A stretch of 57,468 bases of DNA from Planktothrix sp. PCC 11201. Its GTDB lineage: Bacteria > Cyanobacteriota > Cyanobacteriia > Cyanobacteriales > Microcoleaceae. Made by a program: the position numbers and the translations under genes. Below, piece by piece: positions 5,141-52,021 of this stretch (its first letter is position 1; every line of letters starts with the position of its first letter). The DNA is taken from positions 159,075-216,542 of the forward strand of contig NZ_LT797701.1 of assembly GCF_900009135.1 (NCBI RefSeq), read 5' to 3'. Under the pieces are notes generated by a model, which had not been told where the DNA came from, did not search any database, and worked only from the letters and a program-made list of their open reading frames with translations.

Positions 5141-6646
5141 TTGATAGAAGTTGAAGTCCATAACTTACTGCGAAACCTGCTCAAGTCCCAAACCGAAGCC
5201 CTGTGGCCCCATCATCTGACCATGGCCCGCCTAGTGGCTCGGGCGTTACGTTTGGGACGGGATGCTTTAATTCAAACGGGGATTCCCCCCAGCCACTATC
5301 ATCATTCCTATCGGTTGAGTTATTGGATACCATTATTAGTCTGGCATCAACCAGTAATTGTGGTGGCGCCCGATGGGATTTTGGACGAACTCCAAAGACT
5401 GAATTTACAACCCTGGATTAATCCTGACCTAATTGTCAATAAACCCATTCTCCGAGGGGATTTCTGGCCCAATGATAGCTTTTCGGGGGTCTTATTAACA
5501 ACCCCTTCAGCCTGGTTATCCAGTCGCTTCCGGGAGGATCACCGCTTTCCTCAGCAAATTCTGACGGTGATTGATGGGGTTGATGATTTGGAAACCTGGA
5601 CACGCCAAACCCTAACGGTTAGTTTACATCCCCAGGACTGGAATGATTTGATGCAGCAGCAACCCCACCAGGGGGAAACCATTCGAGACACCCGCATACA
5701 CCTGACTCGGATTTTGTTCCAACATCCCCCCAATCCCTATCAATGTTATGTTTTAGACAGTCCAGAACAGAAAATAGTTGAGCAACTGTATGCACGGGTT
5801 GATCCTCAGTTATCTGAATGGCAGAGTTTTTGGCAACGTTGGCAACGGCCGGGACAGCTAAAATGGGCCGTAGTGGATCGGATATTGGGAACCTTTTCTC
5901 TGTTTTGTGGCCCGGTGGATGTGGCATCGGAGTTAAGTCACCTTTGGCCCCAACAGCCCGTGGTTTTGATTGGAGGAGCCTTAGATTTAGATAAACAGGC
6001 TCCGATTTATCGCCAAGCGGTGGGACTCGGAGAAATTACGGGGGTAAAATTTACCCCTGATCGACAAAGCCAACTGATCCAACTTTATATCCCATCGGGT
6101 TTTCCTTTACCCAATACTCCCCAGTATCAAATAGCTTTGACTAAAGAGCTTCACACTATTTTATATATGAGTTTGTCAGTCCAAGGATTCAGTGTTTTAT
6201 TAGTGGGAGATGTTCCGTTAAAAGCCCAAGTAAGTACGGCGATGGCGGCGGAATTTGGTTCTCGGGTGCGGGTAGAAACCACGGATTTACCGGAAAATGC
6301 AGTTTTAGTTACAGGTTGGGAGTTTTGGCGAGAACATCAGGGCCGTTTACCTTCACCTCATTTATTAGCGATCGCCACCTTACCTATTCCTTCTTTAGAA
6401 GATCCTTTAGTGGCTGGACAGGTCGCCTACTATAAACAACAACATCGAGATTGGTTCCGGTTTTATTTATTACCAAAAGCATTAAGTGAACTCCAACGGG
6501 CCGTTGCCACGGTGCGGGATAGTCAGGGGGTTGTCGCCCTATTTGATAGTCGGGTCTTACATCGCAGTTACGGAGAACAGGTCTTAACCGCCTTGAGTCC
6601 CTCCGCCCGCATTAATTATTTAGATACGTTGTGGTTAGTCCAGTAG
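5141..6646 (+). CDS. Divergent DinG-like helicase-family protein
   Basis: The 501-residue product resembles cyanobacterial proteins annotated as DinG/Rad3-type helicases: an N-terminal segment with WPHHLTMARLVARALRLGRD and an IQTG element, then VVAPDGILDELQ as in helicase motif Ia, and a C-terminal half with a helicase-C-like tail. The ATPase motifs are eroded. No GxGKT loop is visible, and the expected DEAx motif reads IDGVDDLE. It may be a non-catalytic DNA-binding relative. The TTG at 5141 is chosen because the nearest ATG (5124) is out of frame and stops after nine codons. The family assignment rests on memory of related sequences and is uncertain. Confidence 0.6.
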   Translation: MIEVEVHNLLRNLLKSQTEALWPHHLTMARLVARALRLGRDALIQTGIPPSHYHHSYRLSYWIPLLVWHQPVIVVAPDGILDELQRLNLQPWINPDLIVNKPILRGDFWPNDSFSGVLLTTPSAWLSSRFREDHRFPQQILTVIDGVDDLETWTRQTLTVSLHPQDWNDLMQQQPHQGETIRDTRIHLTRILFQHPPNPYQCYVLDSPEQKIVEQLYARVDPQLSEWQSFWQRWQRPGQLKWAVVDRILGTFSLFCGPVDVASELSHLWPQQPVVLIGGALDLDKQAPIYRQAVGLGEITGVKFTPDRQSQLIQLYIPSGFPLPNTPQYQIALTKELHTILYMSLSVQGFSVLLVGDVPLKAQVSTAMAAEFGSRVRVETTDLPENAVLVTGWEFWREHQGRLPSPHLLAIATLPIPSLEDPLVAGQVAYYKQQHRDWFRFYLLPKALSELQRAVATVRDSQGVVALFDSRVLHRSYGEQVLTALSPSARINYLDTLWLVQ

Positions 6647-6665: not shown

Positions 6666-7328
6666 TCAAAGATTTGGATCAACTCCTAAGCTTTTCAACC
6701 GTTCTTCTAAGGCTTTTAATCGAGCTTCTGCTAGTTCCGCCCGTTGCCTTTCCTGTTGTAATTTTTGCCCTAATTCTACAAACGTTAAAAACCGTTCTCC
6801 CGTGGGGGTAAAAATTTGTAATTCTTCCGCCATCTCAAAACGAACTCCTAGACGGGGACTGACCCAACCTTGAATTTCTTCAATAATTGTTAATTGTCCA
6901 TCAATGATTTGCCATCCGGCAAAATCTACGTTTTCAGGATCATAGAGATAATATTCCTCCACGCCATACCGTTGATAAAATTGTAGTTTAGCCGCCATTT
7001 CTTTAATTGTATTTCCGGGGGAAAGAATCTCAAATACCACTTGGGGTGGGATATTATCTTCTTGCCATTGTTGATAGGAACCCCGATAACCCTTGGGACG
7101 ACCAAAAACCACCATCACATCCGGGGCGCGACGAATTGTATTATTTCCTTCCATGGGATACCAGAGCAAATCCCCCGCTACAAACACATTAGAATTGTCA
7201 GCAAATAACAGGTCTAAATTTTCTTTGATGGTAACAATCCATTGAAATTGCTGGGTATTATCAGCCATCGGTTGACCGTCACTATCCGAATAAATAATCG
7301 GGGTTTGGAATAGTTGTTGTTGGATCAT
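6666..7328 (-). CDS. Uma2-family (DUF820) PD-(D/E)XK nuclease-like protein
   Basis: The 220-residue protein has the hallmark core of the Uma2 family, very abundant in cyanobacteria: RAPDVMVVFGRPKGYRGSY, then PPQVVFEILSPGNT, then KLQFYQRYGVEEYYLYDPE. The Asp in PDV and the Glu in FEIL are the expected restriction-endonuclease-fold acidic residues. The C-terminal 45 residues form a charged coiled coil (LGQKLQQERQRAELAEARLK), common in this family. The ATG lies a few bases after AGGG. Biological role is not established; many copies per genome are normal. It converges on the helicase-like gene, with 19 bases between the stops. Confidence 0.88.
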   Translation of the reverse strand: MIQQQLFQTPIIYSDSDGQPMADNTQQFQWIVTIKENLDLLFADNSNVFVAGDLLWYPMEGNNTIRRAPDVMVVFGRPKGYRGSYQQWQEDNIPPQVVFEILSPGNTIKEMAAKLQFYQRYGVEEYYLYDPENVDFAGWQIIDGQLTIIEEIQGWVSPRLGVRFEMAEELQIFTPTGERFLTFVELGQKLQQERQRAELAEARLKALEERLKSLGVDPNL

Positions 7329-19618: not shown

Positions 19619-20854
19619 TCAGGAGACAACTGCTGAAATTCTGGACGGGTTGACGCTTCGCCGAGATGTGCTTTCTTTGCAGAAAGTCTTACCTTCTCTC
19701 CACGTCCGTTTAGAGTCTCCGTGCATCCCTCCGGCGACTAAAATATTAATTGCAGCGTTAATATCTCGATCATGAAAAGTGCCGCAATTCAAACAAATCC
19801 ACTCTCTAACATTTAGCTCTTTTTTGCCACCTTTAAAACCACAACAAGAGCAAGTTTGAGAAGTAGGAATCCATCTATCAATCACTCGAAAATCCCGCCC
19901 GTACATGACTGATTTAGCTTCTAACATAGTTCTAAAACTACGCCAACCTAAATCGCTAATAGCACGGGATAGTTTTCGGTTCTTAATCATCCCTGACACA
20001 TTCAAATCTTCTAAGACTATTGTTTGATTTTCACGAATAATCTTAGTTGACAGTTTATGTAAAAAATCATTCCTGGTATCAGAAATTTTAGCATGAAGTT
20101 TAGCTAGTTTCTTTCTAGCAACTTCCCTCCTTTTACTGCTACTTCGACTCCGCTCAGTACAGGCCTTCTGTTTCCTTGACAAATTACGCTGTAATCTCCT
20201 TAAACGCTTTAACTGTTTTTTTAAAGGTTTAGGTGATTTAACTTTTTTACCGTTACTTAGTGTAGCAAAATCAGTGATTCCTAAATCAATTCCTACGGAA
20301 TTTTGATTTTCAGGTAATTGTTGAGGATTAAACTCAACTACAAAGCTAACAAAGTATCGATCAGCACTATCTTTAATTAGGGTAGAACTAGAAGGGGCTG
20401 CGGGTAATTCTCTACTCCAAATCACTTTGATATCACCTATTTTAGCTAGGTGAATGTAATCAGAATTAGGATAGAGTTTAAAACCGTTATCCATAAATCT
20501 AGCTGATTGCTTAGATTTACGTTTCTTGAATTTAGGAGGTTTAACTTTTTTACCTTTTCTTTGCCCTTTACAGGATTTAAAAAAATTTGAATAAGCCTGC
20601 TCTAAATCTCTTAAAGACTGCTGCAAGGGAATAGAGGAAACTTCTGTTAACCATTGCTTTTCCTCGGTTTTCTTGAGTTCTGTAAGTCTTTTAGAAAGTT
20701 CATTACTAGAAGGTTTTTTGTTTCCGTTTTGATACTCTTGTTGGCAATATGCTAAGGCATCGTTAAAAACCACCCGACAGCAACCGAACAATTGGGATAT
20801 CAGGCCCTTTTGTTGGTCAGTTGGGTAGATTCTGTACCGATACCTGACTTTCAT
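19619..20854 (-). CDS. tnpB: TnpB, RNA-guided nuclease of an IS200/IS605-type element
   Basis: The 411-residue protein has an N-terminal helix-turn-helix-like region (YRYRIYPTDQQKGLISQLFG), a wedge region, and a RuvC domain with Asp in VGIDLGITDFA, Glu in IVLEDLNVSGM and Asp in HDRDINAAINI. The CSCCG and CLNCG pairs form the zinc ribbon. All catalytic positions are present, so it may be active. An eight-residue segment, ACTERSRS, interrupts the basic stretch after SRKQK; it is encoded by the dispersed repeat TACTGAGCGGAGTCGAAG (about 20141-20160). The C-terminal tail after the zinc ribbon is normal. Confidence 0.92.
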   Translation of the reverse strand: MKVRYRYRIYPTDQQKGLISQLFGCCRVVFNDALAYCQQEYQNGNKKPSSNELSKRLTELKKTEEKQWLTEVSSIPLQQSLRDLEQAYSNFFKSCKGQRKGKKVKPPKFKKRKSKQSARFMDNGFKLYPNSDYIHLAKIGDIKVIWSRELPAAPSSSTLIKDSADRYFVSFVVEFNPQQLPENQNSVGIDLGITDFATLSNGKKVKSPKPLKKQLKRLRRLQRNLSRKQKACTERSRSSSKRREVARKKLAKLHAKISDTRNDFLHKLSTKIIRENQTIVLEDLNVSGMIKNRKLSRAISDLGWRSFRTMLEAKSVMYGRDFRVIDRWIPTSQTCSCCGFKGGKKELNVREWICLNCGTFHDRDINAAINILVAGGMHGDSKRTWREGKTFCKESTSRRSVNPSRISAVVS

Positions 20855-25087: not shown

Positions 25088-27010
25088 GTGTCCTTAGAAA
25101 AATTATTTCAAATTAGCACCTCGGCGCCGCCGCCGATTCATTGCACTAACCCCGCCTGTCCCCAACCGCCTAACTCCTTGGGGCATCGAATTTGTGAAAC
25201 TTGCCAAACCCCCCTCACCTATCGATATTTGTGGGCGACAGGTTCGGGGGCGAGTCAAATTCAACCCGGTCAGTTAGTGGGAAATCGCTATTATGTTACT
25301 TTCCCCCAGGTTTGGTTAGATACTAAACCTGGTGCCCCACCGATTTTGCCCGATATTCTTTCAGAATCGATATTATCCTATTTATATTTATATCCCCATC
25401 ATTTGCATATTCCTGGGGTGTTTGGGGTTTATCCCTTGGGTATTCCCCCAGAAGCGACGGAAACCCTACTATTAGATAACATTCCCGTCGATAGTCGGGG
25501 TCAACTCCTTCCGACTTTGGTGGAAGTTTGGCCGAAATCCTCCGCCGTGCGTCAGGTCTATTGGTTATGGCAAATGCTGCAACTGTGGATACCCTTAACC
25601 GAACAGGGGGCGGCTTATAGTTTGTTTGTCAAGGAGAACCTGCGGGTGGACGGTTGGCGGGTGCGGTTGCGAGAATTACATCAGGGCAAGGTGCAACCGA
25701 CCCAACGAGATTTAGCAGAATCTTGGGTGGCATTGATAGAAACAGCCCATCCGACTATACAGTATCGTTTACAAACTATTCACCAATTAATGCGTCGCCA
25801 GGAGGACTGCTTAAAAGAGGTGGCGAGTCAACTGAATCAATTATTGATGGAACAGGCGGCTCAACTCCCCTTACATTTGGCGGTAACGGGACTAACGGAT
25901 GTGGGGGTCAGACGTTCAGAGAATGAGGATAGTTGTTATCCAACTATTTCTGATGTGCGGAATTTTCATCTTTATCCAAATGATAAATTAATTCCCCATT
26001 TAAGCATTGTTTGTGATGGGGTGGGCGGTCATGATGGTGGTGAGGTGGCGAGTCAATTAGCAGTACAGTCTTTAAAGCCTTTAATTCATAGTTTGATGGC
26101 AGAAATTTCCCAGCAAGAGGAGTTAGCCCCACCGGAATTAATTATTGAACAACTGCAAGAAATTACCCGAGTTGTTAATAACGTTATTGCTGCCCAAAAT
26201 AATGAGCAGAGGCGAGAATTTAGACAACGGATGGGAACAACCTTAGTCATGGCTTTACAGTTACCTCAGAAAGTAAAAACCCCCGAAGGTATTGAGTTAA
26301 CCAATTGCCATGAATTATATCTGGTGAATGTGGGGGATAGTCGCGCCTATTGGATTACTCAGAATTCCTGTCAACAATTAACTGTTGATGATGATGTGGC
26401 AAATCGGGAGGTTTGTCACGGTCGGAGCTTATATTGGGATGCTGCTCAACGGTCAGGTTCGGGAGCTTTAACCCAGGCTTTAGGAACCCGGGAAGCGGAG
26501 TTTTTACGACCAACGGTACAACGATTTATTATTGAGGAAGATGGATTATTATTATTATGTTCCGACGGATTAAGTGATAATCAACGGGTGGAACAATGTT
26601 GGCAAGATTTTTCGGCTTCAGTGTTAAATGGAGAACAATCTTTAGAATCGGCGGTACAGGGATGGATTGACATTGCCAATGATAAGAATGGTCATGATAA
26701 TATCTCGGTTGTACTCACCTATTGTGGGGTATCTCCGCAAAAATTAGTATTACTAGAAACGCCTCATCTACCGACAAAAATGGAATCTTTGGAGTCTGAA
26801 CCTACGGCAGCATCTAAGGTTTTATTATATGATGAATCTATTCCTGAGCCAGAGGTTCAGCCCCCCTCCAAGTCAATGTCTAAGTGGAAGGAGGTAGTTT
26901 TTATTTTGAGTTTATTTGTGATATTTATTGCCGGGGGTTTTGCGATTTGGTGGCAAATTCGTCAGTCTCAACTGCAATCCATTCCCAGTCAACCCACTCA
27001 GACACGCTGA
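25088..27010 (+). CDS. Zinc ribbon, kinase-like region and PP2C-type phosphatase, membrane-anchored
   Basis: The 640-residue protein begins at GTG and has four parts. A zinc ribbon uses Cys19, Cys24, Cys36 and Cys39. Residues about 60-245 look like a degenerate protein-kinase fold: LVGNRYYV resembles a glycine loop, and ENLRVDGWRVRLREL resembles a catalytic-loop-to-DFG segment with HRD and DFG lost. A PP2C phosphatase domain (about 266-545) has the metal aspartates in SENEDS (281), CDGVGGHDGG (310), CSDGLSD (493) and GHDNIS (537). A C-terminal membrane helix lies at 602-622, so the rest faces the cytoplasm. It would remove phosphate from Ser/Thr residues. Partner kinase not in the window. The CRISPR leader starts right after its stop. 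Confidence 0.88.
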   Translation: MSLEKLFQISTSAPPPIHCTNPACPQPPNSLGHRICETCQTPLTYRYLWATGSGASQIQPGQLVGNRYYVTFPQVWLDTKPGAPPILPDILSESILSYLYLYPHHLHIPGVFGVYPLGIPPEATETLLLDNIPVDSRGQLLPTLVEVWPKSSAVRQVYWLWQMLQLWIPLTEQGAAYSLFVKENLRVDGWRVRLRELHQGKVQPTQRDLAESWVALIETAHPTIQYRLQTIHQLMRRQEDCLKEVASQLNQLLMEQAAQLPLHLAVTGLTDVGVRRSENEDSCYPTISDVRNFHLYPNDKLIPHLSIVCDGVGGHDGGEVASQLAVQSLKPLIHSLMAEISQQEELAPPELIIEQLQEITRVVNNVIAAQNNEQRREFRQRMGTTLVMALQLPQKVKTPEGIELTNCHELYLVNVGDSRAYWITQNSCQQLTVDDDVANREVCHGRSLYWDAAQRSGSGALTQALGTREAEFLRPTVQRFIIEEDGLLLLCSDGLSDNQRVEQCWQDFSASVLNGEQSLESAVQGWIDIANDKNGHDNISVVLTYCGVSPQKLVLLETPHLPTKMESLESEPTAASKVLLYDESIPEPEVQPPSKSMSKWKEVVFILSLFVIFIAGGFAIWWQIRQSQLQSIPSQPTQTR

Positions 27011-27272
27011 TGGGGCCCAATTTCCGACAACCTATAGCTGTTCAAAATAGAAGGGGAAATTTTGGGTCTGAAAGGTTTATCTGTTATGGGTTTGAGATGT
27101 CTTAAGGCGGTAAGGAGGTTGTCAGAATTCCTGAATGCTTTATGGGAAGAGGGTTTCAGCCTTTTTTTGTTTTTGCCCGTTGACAAGTTGATGGCTGAAA
27201 TGATATATTCGATTCAGGTTGTCGGAATCGTACCTCGAAAACTAAATATATCAAGGGTTCCAGAAGCCCGCT
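27011..27272 (+). promoter_or_regulatory. CRISPR leader region
   Basis: The 262 bases between the phosphatase stop and the first repeat are AT-rich and non-coding. Transcription towards the array is inferred because repeats end in ATTGAAAC, the usual 5' handle of cyanobacterial crRNA. The motif AGGTTGTCNGAA occurs directly at 27116-27127 and 27216-27227, and its reverse complement, TTCCGACAACCT, is at 27022-27033. Such repeated sites could bind adaptation proteins or IHF-like factors. A promoter near the array cannot be fixed by reading. Confidence 0.65.
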
Positions 27273-30200
27273 GTTGAAATGCCTTATAATCCCTTTCAGG
27301 GATTGAAACCAAATACAGACGGGGGTAAATGATAAGCAGAAATTAAAGTTGAAATGCCTTATAATCCCTTTCAGGGATTGAAACAGCTGCGATCGCCTCC
27401 AACTCCTTCCAGAATCCGGTTGAAATGCCTTATAATCCCTTTCAGGGATTGAAACCAACATTATAGATGGCGGGAAATTTGGCAAAAAGTTGAAATGCCT
27501 TATAATCCCTTTCAGGGATTGAAACACCCCTTGGCTACCAGGTAAGGGAACTGCTATATCTGTTGAAATGCCTTATAATCCCTTTCAGGGATTGAAACTT
27601 AATCTCAAAGAAGATCCAAGCATTGCTGCATTGTTGAAATGCCTTATAATCCCTTTCAGGGATTGAAACGGAATGCAGACAACTAACATACAGGGAATAT
27701 AAAGTTGAAATGCCTTATAATCCCTTTCAGGGATTGAAACCAGCAAATTCAGTCAGATTACAAACCCTCTCCTTAGTTGAAATGCCTTATAATCCCTTTC
27801 AGGGATTGAAACGTGCCAACCGAAGTGAGTTTGGATTCCTTGATTGGCGTTGAAATGCCTTATAATCCCTTTCAGGGATTGAAACGGGGAAAGCGCAAGG
27901 CAAAATGGTCGGGTTCAGAGGTTGAAATGCCTTATAATCCCTTTCAGGGATTGAAACAGAGTCCCAACCTTCACAGCAGGGAAGGGATTTAGGTTGAAAT
28001 GCCTTATAATCCCTTTCAGGGATTGAAACAACCAATCCCCGCAATAACTGGTCAGAATTTCTGGTTGAAATGCCTTATAATCCCTTTCAGGGATTGAAAC
28101 AGCTCAAAACCCCACTTCCGGATTAAAGACCGGACGTTGAAATGCCTTATAATCCCTTTCAGGGATTGAAACATTCAGTTTGGTGACAAAGTTCCCGAAA
28201 AGAATCAGGGGTTGAAATGCCTTATAATCCCTTTCAGGGATTGAAACGCCATGAACGAACAGGGGAAGTATATTCTAATAACTCAGTTGAAATGCCTTAT
28301 AATCCCTTTCAGGGATTGAAACACTCCCCAATAATCATTTGGCGATCGCCTTTTTGGTTGAAATGCCTTATAATCCCTTTCAGGGATTGAAACGCTACCT
28401 TGGATTCAAATGCCAAGATCCCAAAAGTTGAAATGCCTTATAATCCCTTTCAGGGATTGAAACTACTTTATGCAACAAATGAATATATCAATTATGAGGT
28501 TGAAATGCCTTATAATCCCTTTCAGGGATTGAAACATCTGACAAAATATGTGATCGCTGTGATTGGAGTAGTTGAAATGCCTTATAATCCCTTTCAGGGA
28601 TTGAAACGTTACTAATTCAAATTCCTGTCTGGCTTGTTCCGTTGAAATGCCTTATAATCCCTTTCAGGGATTGAAACGGGTTTTATATCACCAGAGAACC
28701 TTGTAATCGTGAGTTGAAATGCCTTATAATCCCTTTCAGGGATTGAAACATTGCTGCATACCATAGCTGCAATGATAGGATATCTAGTTGAAATGCCTTA
28801 TAATCCCTTTCAGGGATTGAAACATTGCAGCCGAAACATTAGCGCTACCATCAAAACGTTGAAATGCCTTATAATCCCTTTCAGGGATTGAAACTAATCA
28901 GTACGATTTAGGGGAGAAAATAACTTATCTTGTTGAAATGCCTTATAATCCCTTTCAGGGATTGAAACCAAAAAAATCCGAGTTCAGCCGACAAAATTAA
29001 TTGGAGTTGAAATGCCTTATAATCCCTTTCAGGGATTGAAACCCCAGGGGGGTGGATCGCGTTCCTTTCCTTATACAGGTTGAAATGCCTTATAATCCCT
29101 TTCAGGGATTGAAACCAATACCCCAAACTGTCCAGCTTACTGATTTAGGTTGAAATGCCTTATAATCCCTTTCAGGGATTGAAACCGGCTTGCAATTTTT
29201 GAGCCTTTTTCTTCATTTCGGAGTTGAAATGCCTTATAATCCCTTTCAGGGATTGAAACCGGCCACTGCCCCGGTGAGGTAACAGGTAACTGTTGAAATG
29301 CCTTATAATCCCTTTCAGGGATTGAAACCCATTTGCAGCCCATCGCTTTGATTTGCTCTTTGTTGAAATGCCTTATAATCCCTTTCAGGGATTGAAACAG
29401 ATCCTTTTAGCTGTGAACAAGCTAATCAAATTGTTGAAATGCCTTATAATCCCTTTCAGGGATTGAAACGTGCTTTGGAGTTTTCGAGCCAAACCCGAAC
29501 AGGGTTGAAATGCCTTATAATCCCTTTCAGGGATTGAAACCTCTTTAACAGAAGCAAAACTCAAATCCTGAACTGTTGAAATGCCTTATAATCCCTTTCA
29601 GGGATTGAAACTTGCCATAATTGCGGAGCCAAATCACCCCGCCCGGTTTTCTGGTTGAAATGCCTTATAATCCCTTTCAGGGATTGAAACATTAACAATC
29701 TTATATCAATATCCACTCGCAAGGGTTGAAATGCCTTATAATCCCTTTCAGGGATTGAAACGGACTTTGGATTAGAACAGGAATTGTCGGGGCTTGTTGA
29801 AATGCCTTATAATCCCTTTCAGGGATTGAAACGTTTAAGTCCATAAACCATTCTCTTTTTACTGGTTTGTTGAAATGCCTTATAATCCCTTTCAGGGATT
29901 GAAACTTGTTTGTAGGGTTTGAGGGCGGCTTGGAGTTCTCGTTGAAATGCCTTATAATCCCTTTCAGGGATTGAAACTCATCGGCAAAAAATTCATCAAC
30001 CGCTTCTGCTGTCATTTGTTGAAATGCCTTATAATCCCTTTCAGGGATTGAAACATGGTCATAATAGAAAAAACCCTGAACAGCAACGGTTGAAATGCCT
30101 TATAATCCCTTTCAGGGATTGAAACGGCTCTCAGTTCACGAATCTTTAGCCAAGGAATATGTGTTGAAATGCCTTATAATCCCTTTCAGGGATTGAAACA

Positions 30201-32600
30201 CCTCCTGACGATCAGCTAAAGGAAGAACTCTGCGTTGAAATGCCTTATAATCCCTTTCAGGGATTGAAACACTTGATTAAATTTGTTTTAATGCTGTTTG
30301 TTTGGTTGAAATGCCTTATAATCCCTTTCAGGGATTGAAACCAACATTAAGCGAAGAGGCTTACTTCAATGAACTCACAGTTTCGTTGAAATGCCTTATA
30401 ATCCCTTTCAGGGATTGAAACGGGTGTAGGCAAAAGGATTCTTGATTGATATTGTCGTTGAAATGCCTTATAATCCCTTTCAGGGATTGAAACATTATTT
30501 TCTCCTTGATTACTTCCAAAAGCTATGAGTTGAAATGCCTTATAATCCCTTTCAGGGATTGAAACCATCTTCCTGACATCAAACTTTATAGTGCCTGTGT
30601 GTTGAAATGCCTTATAATCCCTTTCAGGGATTGAAACAGTTATCTTGAGGGGGATTTTCACCCCCTCGGATTTGTTGAAATGCCTTATAATCCCTTTCAG
30701 GGATTGAAACTTCCCACTGCGATCAATTCCTTCAAAAACTATTAGTTGAAATGCCTTATAATCCCTTTCAGGGATTGAAACTAGATGCAAGCCTGTCAGA
30801 CCTCAAGGTGATAAGATTGTTGAAATGCCTTATAATCCCTTTCAGGGATTGAAACATCCTAGAAGATTTTGAATCAGCCCCTTCAAATAGGTTGAAATGC
30901 CTTATAATCCCTTTCAGGGATTGAAACGAACTCTCAATAATTCCCGCTAAAATATCTTCGTTGAAATGCCTTATAATCCCTTTCAGGGATTGAAACATTA
31001 ACAACTTATTAATCAAGATGACACAAACAGGTTGAAATGCCTTATAATCCCTTTCAGGGATTGAAACGAAAAAATCCAGGATGGAAAAACGAACCGCTTA
31101 TCGTTGAAATGCCTTATAATCCCTTTCAGGGATTGAAACATTCTTTTCAACCAAGAAAGATGCCAACGGTAATCCCGTTGAAATGCCTTATAATCCCTTT
31201 CAGGGATTGAAACTATAAACCTACTCCCGATGGAAGTTTCCTATATTGTGTTGAAATGCCTTATAATCCCTTTCAGGGATTGAAACAAGAATATTATAGA
31301 TGTCTTGAAGAATATCAAGAGGTTGAAATGCCTTATAATCCCTTTCAGGGATTGAAACAACGCAAAACTAGATTCTCTAAGCAACAACATCCTGATGTTG
31401 AAATGCCTTATAATCCCTTTCAGGGATTGAAACTGGGCTTTTCAAGGGAGCGATCGCCACAAACGATGGTTGAAATGCCTTATAATCCCTTTCAGGGATT
31501 GAAACTCCATAGCCATAACTGCGTTTTTTCCCAATTCCTTGTTGAAATGCCTTATAATCCCTTTCAGGGATTGAAACGCAATAAATCTCCAGTATTGGGA
31601 TCTACGAGTTTCCCTTCGTTGAAATGCCTTATAATCCCTTTCAGGGATTGAAACATTCAATTTGATAAATCCCCTGTAGAGAAAAATATGTTGAAATGCC
31701 TTATAATCCCTTTCAGGGATTGAAACCATCTTAAGCGGTAAGACGATCTGAACTGTTCTAGTTGAAATGCCTTATAATCCCTTTCAGGGATTGAAACCCA
31801 TTTTTAGAGGGATCAAATTGTGGTCTAGGATGTTGAAATGCCTTATAATCCCTTTCAGGGATTGAAACAATGAAAAAGTGCGTCAAAATCCGTCAACAAC
31901 GAATGGTTGAAATGCCTTATAATCCCTTTCAGGGATTGAAACACATTTGATTTGTCTCCTAATTGTTGTTAATTGAGTTGAAATGCCTTATAATCCCTTT
32001 CAGGGATTGAAACGAATTGGGATAATAATTCGATTCCTGAAAAAATCGTTGAAATGCCTTATAATCCCTTTCAGGGATTGAAACGTAGGCGGAAATTGAT
32101 TTACAAACGTGGCTGAACTGGTGTTGAAATGCCTTATAATCCCTTTCAGGGATTGAAACCTCGATTTGACTGGCATCAATGCCGAAATACAGCAGGAGTT
32201 GAAATGCCTTATAATCCCTTTCAGGGATTGAAACAGGATGATTATGGCGATGATCGACCTTTTGGAGGTTGAAATGCCTTATAATCCCTTTCAGGGATTG
32301 AAACGGTAGATACCACCCTGCCCGCTAATCAGGAAGTGATTGTTGAAATGCCTTATAATCCCTTTCAGGGATTGAAACTCCATTTGTTGAATATTGAACA
32401 TACAATAAGACGTTGAAATGCCTTATAATCCCTTTCAGGGATTGAAACGAGCAGTATTCTTTTGTAGTAATATAGTCATTAATGGTTGAAATGCCTTATA
32501 ATCCCTTTCAGGGATTGAAACATAATCGCAATTAACTTCCCATTCCCAGCCGGGGGCGTGGGTGTTGAAATGCCTTATAATCCCTTTCAGGGATTGAAAC
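27273..32600 (+). CRISPR. CRISPR array, 74 repeats of 37 nt, 73 spacers
   Basis: I counted 74 repeat starts, from 27273 to 32564, at a mean interval of about 72.5 bases. The 37-base repeat begins GTTGAAATGCCTTATAA and ends TCCCTTTCAGGGATTGAAAC. It holds the stem AATCCC/GGGATT with loop TTTCA, and the 8-base 3' end ATTGAAAC would become the crRNA handle after Cas6-type cleavage. All repeats I read are identical, including both terminal copies. Spacers run from 32 to 43 bases (longest at 30342-30384). The repeat type suits cyanobacterial class 1 systems such as I-D or III-B, but no cas gene is in the window, so the subtype is not assigned. Short open frames across the array are artefacts. Confidence 0.98.
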
Positions 32601-32661: not shown

Positions 32662-33150
32662 TTAAGCAATATTAGGCGGAATTTTACGCGATTTTAACTG
32701 ACGCCGTTGTTGATAGTCCTGTAAATAAACCTGAATTAACTCTTGGATTTCACTACGTTTAATTTCCGTAGCCGACTGAAAATTATTCGGCGTTTCAAAA
32801 AAGCATAAACTATCCGGCATTTCTAAAACAACCATTTGAAATAAAATATGGGTCACAGGTAAAGGAATCGCTAAAACCCGAGAATCCGCATCAGGATTCG
32901 TATAACTCAAAGCATCTTCTAAGGTAGAAAAAGCATAAATCACTCGTTTTTTAATCTGCGGTTGATCTACATTAATAAACGGTTGCACCACCCAACTTTG
33001 GTCTAAAGTTTGTAAAATATAATATTCGGGATGTTCTAATTGTTCCGCTAATAATTTTAACGCTGGAGCGATCGCTTCCACAATTTGAGGAGTGGTTCCA
33101 TCTTGAGGCGCGTGATCAATTAAAGACTGAATTTGTGGGTCTAAATTCAT
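32662..33150 (-). CDS. Conserved-looking hypothetical protein
   Basis: From the ATG at 33150 the protein has 162 residues. It is helical at the start (DPQIQSLIDHAPQDGTTPQIVEAIAPALKLLAEQL), then has mixed strands (YYILQTLDQSWVV, VIYAFSTLEDALSYT, LPVTHILFQMVVLEM) and ends with a basic helix (DYQQRRQLKSRK). The pattern suggests a soluble sensor or scaffold domain rather than an enzyme. It converges on the CRISPR trailer and is divergent from hetZ. An upstream in-frame start at 33174 is less likely. Unrecognised family. Confidence 0.7.
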   Translation of the reverse strand: MNLDPQIQSLIDHAPQDGTTPQIVEAIAPALKLLAEQLEHPEYYILQTLDQSWVVQPFINVDQPQIKKRVIYAFSTLEDALSYTNPDADSRVLAIPLPVTHILFQMVVLEMPDSLCFFETPNNFQSATEIKRSEIQELIQVYLQDYQQRRQLKSRKIPPNIA

Positions 33151-33189
33151 AGGTTTAAAAAAAATAAATATCAAGAATATTAACAGGGG

Positions 33190-33320: not shown

Positions 33321-34481
33321 ATGGGGGAAATCTGCTGGGGCGAAACCATTTTCCAAAAGCTATTGAGAGAACTGAGTCTATCCACCCGTGCATCTGAACA
33401 AAATTGTCGGGATGTCGCCGAACGAATTACCGAAGAAGCCACCCGCATTTGTACAGAAAGCAAACGGATTCAAGATTCCGGGGATGTAGAAACCTGGGCA
33501 ATGACACTAGCCCAACATCGTTTACAGCAATGTATTCAATATTATCAGCTAGGGTCAAAACAAGGGTCTTTAGAATTACATAGTACCTTGAGCGCGATTG
33601 TTTATCGATATATTACTCCTCCTCAAGTCCAATCCAGTTATCAAGCTCGATTGGAATTAATCAGGGATTTTTTACAAGCCTTTTATTTAGAAACCCTCAA
33701 TGCCTTTCGCAAAGAAGCACAGTTACCTGCGACTTACCGTCCTCGAACCCTGTTAGAACTAGCGGAATATCTGGCATTTACGGAACGCTACGGTAAACGG
33801 CGAATTCCTTTAGCCCGAGGTCGGAGTCAACAATTGATTATTTTAAGAGCGCAAACCTTCTCTCAACAACAGCCTAAAGAAAGTTTTGTCGATTTAGAAT
33901 TAGCCGCCCAGGGCGGAGGGAGTGAATCAGACACGAGTAATCATGATTCCTCCCTCGGACAAGTTCGGGCTGCTATGGTCATCGAGTCCAACGAATCAGA
34001 GTCCGACTCTCTCAGGGAAACTGTAGTAGGAGAACTGATTGCTTATTTAGAAGAACACAAACAAAAAGATTGTGCTGACTATTTTGTCTTGCGGTTACAG
34101 GATTTACCAACCCGTGAAATTGAGGAAATTCTCGGATTAACGCCTCGTCAGCGCGATTATTTACAGCAACGATTTAAGTACCATCTACTGCGATTTGCTT
34201 TAAGCCACCGTTGGGAATTAGTTCACCAATGGTTAGAAGCAGATTTAGAACGGGATTTAGGGTTATTACCCCATCAATGGCAAGAATTCTTAAATCAAAT
34301 CGGTGCAAATCAGCAGCGTTTATTAAGTTTAAAACAGCAGGGATTACCCGAGGTCGAAATTGCTAAGATTTTAAATTGCAAAACTGCTCAGATTCAAAAA
34401 CGCTGGTTTAAGTTGTTAGAATTGGCTTGGGAAATCAGGAATCATTCGGTATCCGGAGCAGGGGCATCTAGTGATGAATAA
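33321..34481 (+). CDS. hetZ: HetZ-like transcriptional regulator
   Basis: The 386-residue protein fits HetZ, a DNA-binding regulator of heterocyst commitment in Anabaena that is also found in filamentous strains without heterocysts. The central block LLELAEYLAFTERYGKRRIP followed by SQQLIILRAQTFSQQQP is what I recognise. The C-terminal third has a sigma-factor-like helix-turn-helix (REIEEILGLTPRQRDYLQQRF and VEIAKILNCKTAQIQKRW). The next gene, patU, overlaps it by eight bases, as in the known hetZ-patU cluster. In this organism it probably acts in another filament process; that is inference. Family assignment rests on motif memory plus gene order. Confidence 0.72.
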   Translation: MGEICWGETIFQKLLRELSLSTRASEQNCRDVAERITEEATRICTESKRIQDSGDVETWAMTLAQHRLQQCIQYYQLGSKQGSLELHSTLSAIVYRYITPPQVQSSYQARLELIRDFLQAFYLETLNAFRKEAQLPATYRPRTLLELAEYLAFTERYGKRRIPLARGRSQQLIILRAQTFSQQQPKESFVDLELAAQGGGSESDTSNHDSSLGQVRAAMVIESNESESDSLRETVVGELIAYLEEHKQKDCADYFVLRLQDLPTREIEEILGLTPRQRDYLQQRFKYHLLRFALSHRWELVHQWLEADLERDLGLLPHQWQEFLNQIGANQQRLLSLKQQGLPEVEIAKILNCKTAQIQKRWFKLLELAWEIRNHSVSGAGASSDE

Positions 34482-50923: not shown

Positions 50924-52021
50924 TTAAAAGGGCATTAATTGTTTAATGGCTTTACTGGCAATATCTCCGTAGCGCAGTTGACCACAGAAAATTTTACTCA
51001 TAATCTTTGTGGCGGCGGGCATTTTTACTCCAGCCTTATAAGCAACTTTCGGAAAACGATAGAATGCACCGCCTAGACGTCCGGCCCAGACCATATCTGC
51101 GCCCCATTCATCTTTCATGACTTGGGTGTAGCCTTCTAAAGCATTACCGACACCGCCTAAGGCTTGATCAATCGCCTCTGCGGCTTTAACTCCACTCAGG
51201 ATTGAAGGACGAATGCCCTCGGCTGATAATGGATCAACTAAACTGGCTGCTTCTCCGGCAATTAGAGCATTTTGGGTATGTAAAGTTTTATCTCCATCCC
51301 AGAGACACAGAGGATGGTCATAAATAGTTGCACTGCCTAAACTCGCTTTACTGGCATAATCCAGTAAGTCCTGCTTCAGATTTTTAGGTTCTCCCCCGAT
51401 AAAAGTAGCAATACTCAAGGAGTAACCATCGGCCTTGGGGAATCCCCAAATACTACCATTTTTTACCATGCCAAATTCAAAACTGGGTAATAACGGTTGA
51501 TCCGTTACCACTTCCATAAATTGACTTTGACGCAGTTTAGACTGTTTCAGTCCTAACCATTTTGCCATTGAACCTTTAGCCCCATCAGCCCCAATTAAAT
51601 ATTTAGCGGTTAGGGGTTCAGTGGTGGTATTCACTTGCCAACGATCGCTTTTAAATTCAATCCCGGTAACTTCTGTATTGTCCTGGAGTTGCGCCCCCTG
51701 ACCCTTAGCCTGTTGGATGAGAAATTGATCAAATACATCCCGTCGCACCATCCACATCGGAACGGGAATATCGGATTCTACCGCATCATTTAATTGCCAG
51801 GTATAGCGAATTCGTTCCACCGTTGTCGAAATTGCCGGGCTAAAATCAAAATCAAACCATTGGGCGATCGCCGGAGAAACTCCCCCTCCACAGGGTTTTA
51901 AGCGGGGAAAAGTTTCTCTTTCCAGAATTAAAACCGAACGTCCGCGTTTGGCTAAATGATAGGCTGCTGCTCCTCCGGCTGGGCCAGCACCAACAATAAT
52001 ACAGTCAAATATTGTTGTCAT
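50924..52021 (-). CDS. FAD-dependent oxidoreductase, geranylgeranyl reductase family
   Basis: The 365-residue protein has an N-terminal FAD loop (DCIIVGAGPAGGAAAYHLAKRG), the ILERETFPRLKPCGGG segment, and LIGADGAKGSMAKWLG. The second FAD contact is NALIAGEAASLVDPLSAEGI. These are diagnostic of the geranylgeranyl reductase family, which includes ChlP and archaeal lipid reductases. This is a paralog, as true ChlP is usually about 400 residues and differs at the N-terminus; the substrate is unknown. The gene lies between repeat blocks and upstream of no clear partner. Confidence 0.85.
   Translation of the reverse strand: MTTIFDCIIVGAGPAGGAAAYHLAKRGRSVLILERETFPRLKPCGGGVSPAIAQWFDFDFSPAISTTVERIRYTWQLNDAVESDIPVPMWMVRRDVFDQFLIQQAKGQGAQLQDNTEVTGIEFKSDRWQVNTTTEPLTAKYLIGADGAKGSMAKWLGLKQSKLRQSQFMEVVTDQPLLPSFEFGMVKNGSIWGFPKADGYSLSIATFIGGEPKNLKQDLLDYASKASLGSATIYDHPLCLWDGDKTLHTQNALIAGEAASLVDPLSAEGIRPSILSGVKAAEAIDQALGGVGNALEGYTQVMKDEWGADMVWAGRLGGAFYRFPKVAYKAGVKMPAATKIMSKIFCGQLRYGDIASKAIKQLMPF

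Follow-up and report, generated by a model that had tools for sequence, protein, structure and literature searches.

Which Cas proteins serve a large CRISPR (clustered regularly interspaced short palindromic repeats) array that stands in DNA without cas genes? The question is raised by a stretch of 57,468 nucleotides from the cyanobacterium Planktothrix sp. PCC 11201 (contig NZ_LT797701.1, here C19, positions 159,075 to 216,542), hereafter the window. It lies on a contig of 922 kb in a genome of 6.0 Mb that is 99.7% complete (G000), and it contains the following element.

27273..32600, + strand: CRISPR array of 74 identical 37-nt repeats and 73 spacers, with the leader-proximal end at 27273

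The owner of this array is very probably the type I-D system of the same genome, which runs it in trans from a cas locus on another contig, C28. Service in trans, which a preliminary description of the window had proposed, is supported by homology of its leader and repeat to those of the I-D locus, by a GTN protospacer-adjacent motif (PAM), by co-occurrence of Cas10d and the repeat family across the genus, and by array relics in species without the system.

The array is uniform. An exact count gives 74 copies of GTTGAAATGCCTTATAATCCCTTTCAGGGATTGAAAC across 27273-32600, in agreement with the number of repeats and spacers first reported, and no copies with 1-12 mismatches are found in the window. 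The spacers are 32-43 nt each and all unique. Each of the 74 repeats scores 48.3 bits against the Rfam family CRISPR-DR5 (RF01318; cut-off 40), far above chance. The repeat stem that had been noted is predicted to form a hairpin of 8 bp, UAAUCCCU/AGGGAUUG, around a 3-nt loop, and it is the same in the four related arrays of this genome; the folding energies of their repeats lie just 1.6-2.1 standard deviations below those of shuffled sequences. A search for a second array with the same repeat found the exact copy at the window only (74 occurrences in the genome) and three arrays of related repeats elsewhere in the genome. The exact repeat is absent from the 97 other related genomes searched.

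The lack of cas genes reported for the window holds up. PADLOC models were applied to 40 of its 47 open reading frames (ORFs) of at least 100 amino acids, the other seven overlapping ORFs or sitting in the array or leader, and none of the 40 encodes Cas1, Cas2 or Cas6. Twelve proteins, the eight cas proteins of the I-D locus and four small ORFs of other cas loci, were compared by tblastn (E up to 0.01) with C19:100001-256100, which includes the window; no match was obtained, and the positive control works. Searches of the whole genome in six frames, with a single model per protein, place all matches to Cas1, Cas10d and Cas6 (four, one and three, respectively) on C23, C28 or C29 and none on C19. 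These searches and tblastn reveal no cas operon close beyond the window edges, a finding that, by the preliminary description, would have refuted service in trans. Thus, the window array does not adjoin cas genes of its own, an arrangement that is usual but not defining. Its distance from the cas locus on C28 is at least about 250 kb, if C19 and C28 form one chromosome.

The search for cas loci elsewhere in the genome led to a complete type I-D locus. C28:633610-645326 comprises cas2, cas1, cas4, cas6d, csc1, csc2, cas10d (1124 amino acids) and cas3d, all eight near full length relative to the PADLOC models and free of internal stops. With this locus the genome holds the complete effector and adaptation genes, and an orphan array, that is, an array in a genome without cognate cas genes, is ruled out. 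The array beside the locus has 57 repeats. Two further remote arrays of the same family, with 40 and 18 repeats, are found at C28:530 kb and C1:38 kb, respectively, which brings the family to four arrays and 189 repeats for one Cas10d, the window array being the largest. The window repeat differs from the cas-adjacent repeat at 3 of 37 positions (9, 10 and 12), all outside the hairpin. It differs at 19 of 37 positions from the sole other repeat of equal length in the genome, and the remaining two have 24-26 matched positions. Each array of the family has its own main repeat variant, with a 23-nt 3′ end that is constant save for one loop base. In the C1 array, the two leader-distal repeats differ from the 16 others, and the last one has exactly the sequence of the C28 cas type, a pattern that fits the copying of leader-proximal repeats into new units. 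Shared spacers were sought among seven arrays of the family, whose spacers have no 16-mer in common. The cas-adjacent array is split by a transposase pair (DDE_3, helix-turn-helix; C28:630543-631600, L015 16043-17100), and the repeat adjoining the pair has an altered 5′ part.

The leader ties the window array to the same locus.

27025..27272, + strand: CRISPR leader of about 248 bp, homologous to the C28 cas-adjacent leader and to the leaders of the two other remote arrays
27180..27209, + strand: sigma-70-like promoter motif TTGACA-18-TATATT within the leader, which agrees with the consensus at 11 of 12 positions

Over 247 bp the window leader is 82% identical to the C28 leader (blastn). It is 82-87% identical pairwise to the other three family leaders of the genome, a homology also seen in an alignment of seven leaders, and all four arrays share a leader of about 250 bp with pairwise identities of 76-87%. 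Among the four Cas1 loci of the genome that were compared, only the C28 locus matches. Both repeat and leader are therefore homologous to those beside the I-D cas genes. The promoter motif is a match to the consensus alone, with two sites in the stretch where shuffled sequences would give 0.6; the three other leaders retain its TTGACA hexamer. The remaining three Cas1 loci (L018 1235-4131, L020 1661-15367 and L021 16048-18489) have arrays of unlike repeats, with 37, 23 + 10 and 31 copies counted.

Spacer targets point to the same subtype. In a phage search with the whole array, the Planktothrix phage PaV-LD accounts for 2 of the 6 matching records. Spacers were then compared with 113 targets, namely 111 viral-contig loci from three scans with PaV-LD proteins (some on the same contigs) and two PaV-LD stretches. 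With ≤5 mismatches, PaV-LD-like phages are matched by 14 of 73 window spacers, 2 of 55 from the C28 cas-adjacent array, 2 of 39 from C28:530 kb and 0 of 17 from C1; two of the 73 window spacers match phage contigs perfectly. These shares are no estimate of all targets, because the sampled phages were chosen as PaV-LD relatives. Reversed spacers give 0 of 184 matches for all four arrays and 0 of 73 for the window at the same threshold, where the best reversed spacer has nine mismatches. The 5′ flank of the window protospacers is GTN in 8 of 14 cases (background 5%, binomial 8e-8), including all three matches with ≤1 mismatch. The type I-D PAMs given in PMC10212523 are GTN and GTH. A wider set of 486 spacers, from 19 arrays in five genomes, yields 25 matches with ≤5 mismatches (18 of these from G000). 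GTN flanks 15 of the 25; by position, -3 is G in 19, -2 is T in 21 and -1 is T or C in 24, and the commonest flank is G-T-Y. Spacers directed against cas genes were also considered and rejected, as the best match of the 486 spacers to five cas loci has nine mismatches and the reversed control eight. The whole-array search of phages and plasmids also returned multi-piece matches to Nostoc, Pseudanabaena and similar records, which look repeat-driven, and other single matches to Latilactobacillus, Listeria, Leptolyngbya, Microcystis and Nostoc.

Across ten Planktothrix genomes (G000 to G009), the repeat family accompanies Cas10d. Cas10d of the C28 type (≥1374 bits) is encoded in G000, G008, G005, G003 and G002, which have 189, 128, 50, 59 and 107 exact core repeats, respectively, counts that are lower bounds since repeat variants exist. 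For instance, the first repeat of one remote G002 array (L270, site C below) begins GTTATAATAACCACAAATCCC and is overlooked by the core pattern, so that 107 is a minimum. In the near-complete genomes G001, G009, G007 and G006, Cas10d matches are weaker, at 95-311 bits, and fragmented in three of the four; core repeats there number 4, 1, 0 and 0, respectively. G004, which is 73% complete, lacks Cas10d matches as well as core repeats but has leaders at two contig ends, and is therefore uninformative.

The history of the arrays can be followed at their sites. That of the window array is marked by two neighbouring genes.

25088..27010, + strand: PP2C-type protein phosphatase gene (Pfam PP2C_2), which marks the array site in Planktothrix
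32662..33174, - strand: gene of unknown function beyond the far end of the array, without a Pfam match

Orthologues of the PP2C gene are present in all ten genomes, and the 32662..33174 gene adjoins it in G001, G009, G007 and G006, the relatives without the array and Cas10d. Three remote sites, B (the window array, at PP2C), C (the C1 array) and D (the C28:530 kb array), were traced by flanking sequence, mostly from one flank. At site B, arrays are found in G000, G002, G003 and G005; in the last three they stand about 1.8 kb past PP2C, with two genes between and a different far flank or a contig end. A leader fragment of 72-74 bp is left between PP2C and the flanking gene of the window array in G001, G009 and G007, and in G006 the two genes adjoin and the fragment is missing. 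Site C has arrays in G000, G008 and G002 (36 repeat-end matches, variant repeat); in G005 a leader stands there at the end of a contig, and G003 has no array within 6.2 kb. Two leftover repeats remain there in G001 and one in G009, whereas G007 and G006 have neither array nor relic within about 6 kb. Site D is occupied in all five genomes with C28-type Cas10d (the G005 array is cut by a contig end); no array is found within about 6 kb in G001, G009, G007 and G006, and in the first two of these about 21 bp separate the two flanks. In total, 13 of 15 site-genome combinations are occupied where C28-type Cas10d is encoded (one by the contig-end leader alone) and 0 of 12 where it is not, with relics in 5 of these 12. 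The site of the C28 cas locus has kept two repeats in G001, and none are found within about 12 kb in G009 and G007. The relics indicate that arrays stood at these sites earlier, and the cas genes may have been lost before the arrays. In a tree of 22 leaders, grouping by site is stronger than for shuffled labels, with 6 site changes against a mean of 11.1 (as low in 0 of 200). However, no site forms a single clade, and leaders of G000 and G004 group across sites; for this reason the identity of the sites is taken from flanking sequence. Family arrays were also sought at the PP2C gene outside Planktothrix; among 65 loci the core repeat is present in L051 alone, whose contig has the same length as contig C200 of G005, a count in which arrays of other repeats were not judged.

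Taken with known type I-D biology, these features suggest how the window array would be operated. The leader would supply the promoter together with spacer-insertion signals, and Cas4-Cas1-Cas2 from C28 would insert new spacers beside it. Cas6d from the same locus would cleave the transcript at each repeat hairpin to give CRISPR RNAs (crRNAs) with the 8-nt 5′ handle AUUGAAAC. These would load a Cas10d-Csc2-Csc1 Cascade, which would bind phage DNA beside the GTN PAM and recruit Cas3. The evidence covers anatomy, homology, PAM and distribution, and transcription, processing, acquisition and interference are inferred.

Several observations weigh against service from C28. The window array and the cas-adjacent array do not share an identical repeat, and the comparable acquisition reported in a survey concerns arrays with identical repeats (PMC12814883). 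Six of the 14 window matches have flanks other than GTN (ATT, CTT, TTT twice, GAC and GCT), which are provisionally attributed to divergence of the sampled phages, and in the other three family arrays of the genome GTN flanks just 2 of 4 matches. None of four leader-proximal spacer fragments (spacers 1, 3, 4 and 5) has an exact viral-contig match; therefore, recent acquisition cannot be claimed. The ten genomes of the genus comparison are few and uncorrected for relatedness, and one of them, G008, encodes C28-type Cas10d but has neither array nor leader at the PP2C site. The cas-adjacent array of G008 (26 repeats, L252 15645-17495) is also without a recognisable family leader upstream.

The unmatched leader-proximal spacers and the divergence from the cas-adjacent repeats would also suit a fossil, an array built by the I-D system whose transcription and extension have since ceased. 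This is unlikely. Decay should bring repeat mutations, whereas all 74 repeats are identical; the leader and promoter motif are conserved, the two perfect spacer matches indicate the same, and in the four relatives without C28-type Cas10d the array is gone, not retained. Use of the array by a different CRISPR system of this genome, in place of I-D, is less likely still. The genome does have three further Cas1 loci, on C23 and C29, and two further Cas6 genes, and type III systems can draw on type I crRNAs. However, the repeats at those loci are unlike that of the window, no match to its leader is found there, and the PAM is that of type I-D. Another system of the genome might still share the array on top of I-D. 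A functionless element carried in by a mobile element, for which the absence of nearby cas genes and a TnpB gene about 6.4 kb away might be cited, is scarcely credible, given a family array near the same PP2C gene in three other species (two genes between), a leader with the initial 22 bases of a repeat behind it at the PP2C site in G004 (contig end), and no transposase among the scanned genes directly adjoining the array.

There are hints that the cas locus is mobile. In G002, G003, G005 and G008, the homologue of the flank of the C28 cas locus lies on a contig other than that of cas10d, a comparison weakened by contig breaks. Between G000 and G005, seven of eight cas genes are 92-97% identical and cas6 84%; the background identity is 84% at the PP2C gene and 83% at the site D flank, these two being the only yardsticks and G005 a binned genome. 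Where aligned, cas10d, csc2 and cas3 of G000 are 66-77% identical to those of G002, G003 and G008, and cas1, cas2, cas4 and csc1 are 88-95% identical where found (in G008, csc1 only; L015/L016 versus L252, L254, L255 and L256). This suggests mosaic I-D cas loci, shaped by exchange between species and swapping of effector genes. A possible, though tentative, extension is that the remote I-D arrays act as resident memory at recurring sites; the cas locus would move, be exchanged between species and have its effector genes swapped, any related cas locus would run all resident arrays, and loss of cas genes would lead to joint decay of the arrays.

The array resembles known type I-D systems in most respects. 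Those of Synechocystis and Microcystis, as described in PMC10212523, have a long leader (202-220 bp) with an array promoter, spacers of about 35 nt, a GTN/GTH PAM, a stem-loop repeat and the genes for Cas4-Cas1-Cas2 and Cas10d-Csc1-Csc2-Cas3-Cas6d. In contrast, the window array is on a different contig from its cas genes, and its leader is about 248 bp by homology. I-D arrays are reported to be large, with a mean of 42 spacers, in PMC12814883, where several arrays of one Cas type per genome are also found; unlike those, each remote Planktothrix array has its own repeat variant and not an identical repeat. The I-D system of P. agardhii, from the same genus, has a cluster of eight cas genes and 18 spacers, with spacers against PaV-LD (PMC9398003), but its repeat and that of the window disagree at 18 of 37 positions. 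Since large I-D arrays and remote arrays are already known, an array of this kind is not new. A literature search turned up no account of remote I-D arrays in this genus, although this does not prove that none exists. Of interest are the joint absence of the cas locus and the remote arrays and the hint of mobile cas genes and stationary arrays. The case also shows that leader, repeat and PAM can link a seemingly ownerless large array to the system behind it. Planktothrix offers a natural experiment: a single I-D cas locus is accompanied by three remote arrays, each with its private repeat variant at a recurring site, and in sister species this cas type and the arrays are missing together. It poses a testable question: is a shared leader, in place of an identical repeat, enough for the continued service of a distant array?

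Some other features of the window and its relatives were recorded. The TnpB gene, overlooked in the preliminary description, lies at 19619-20854 on the - strand and encodes Pfam OrfB_IS605 with HTH and TNB domains. PADLOC matches to Cas12f and Csx1 both fall on this single TnpB, which is not a CRISPR effector and is not linked to the array. In G001, about 1.4 kb of additional DNA interrupts the gene that corresponds to window 33321-34481 (L040 15348-17869). Other PADLOC matches in the window are a DinG-like helicase at 5141-6646, a weak C3a186 match at 50924-52021, and a 220-amino-acid protein at 6666-7328 (- strand) with a weak partial match to the candidate defence model PDC-S03 (E 1.2e-11).

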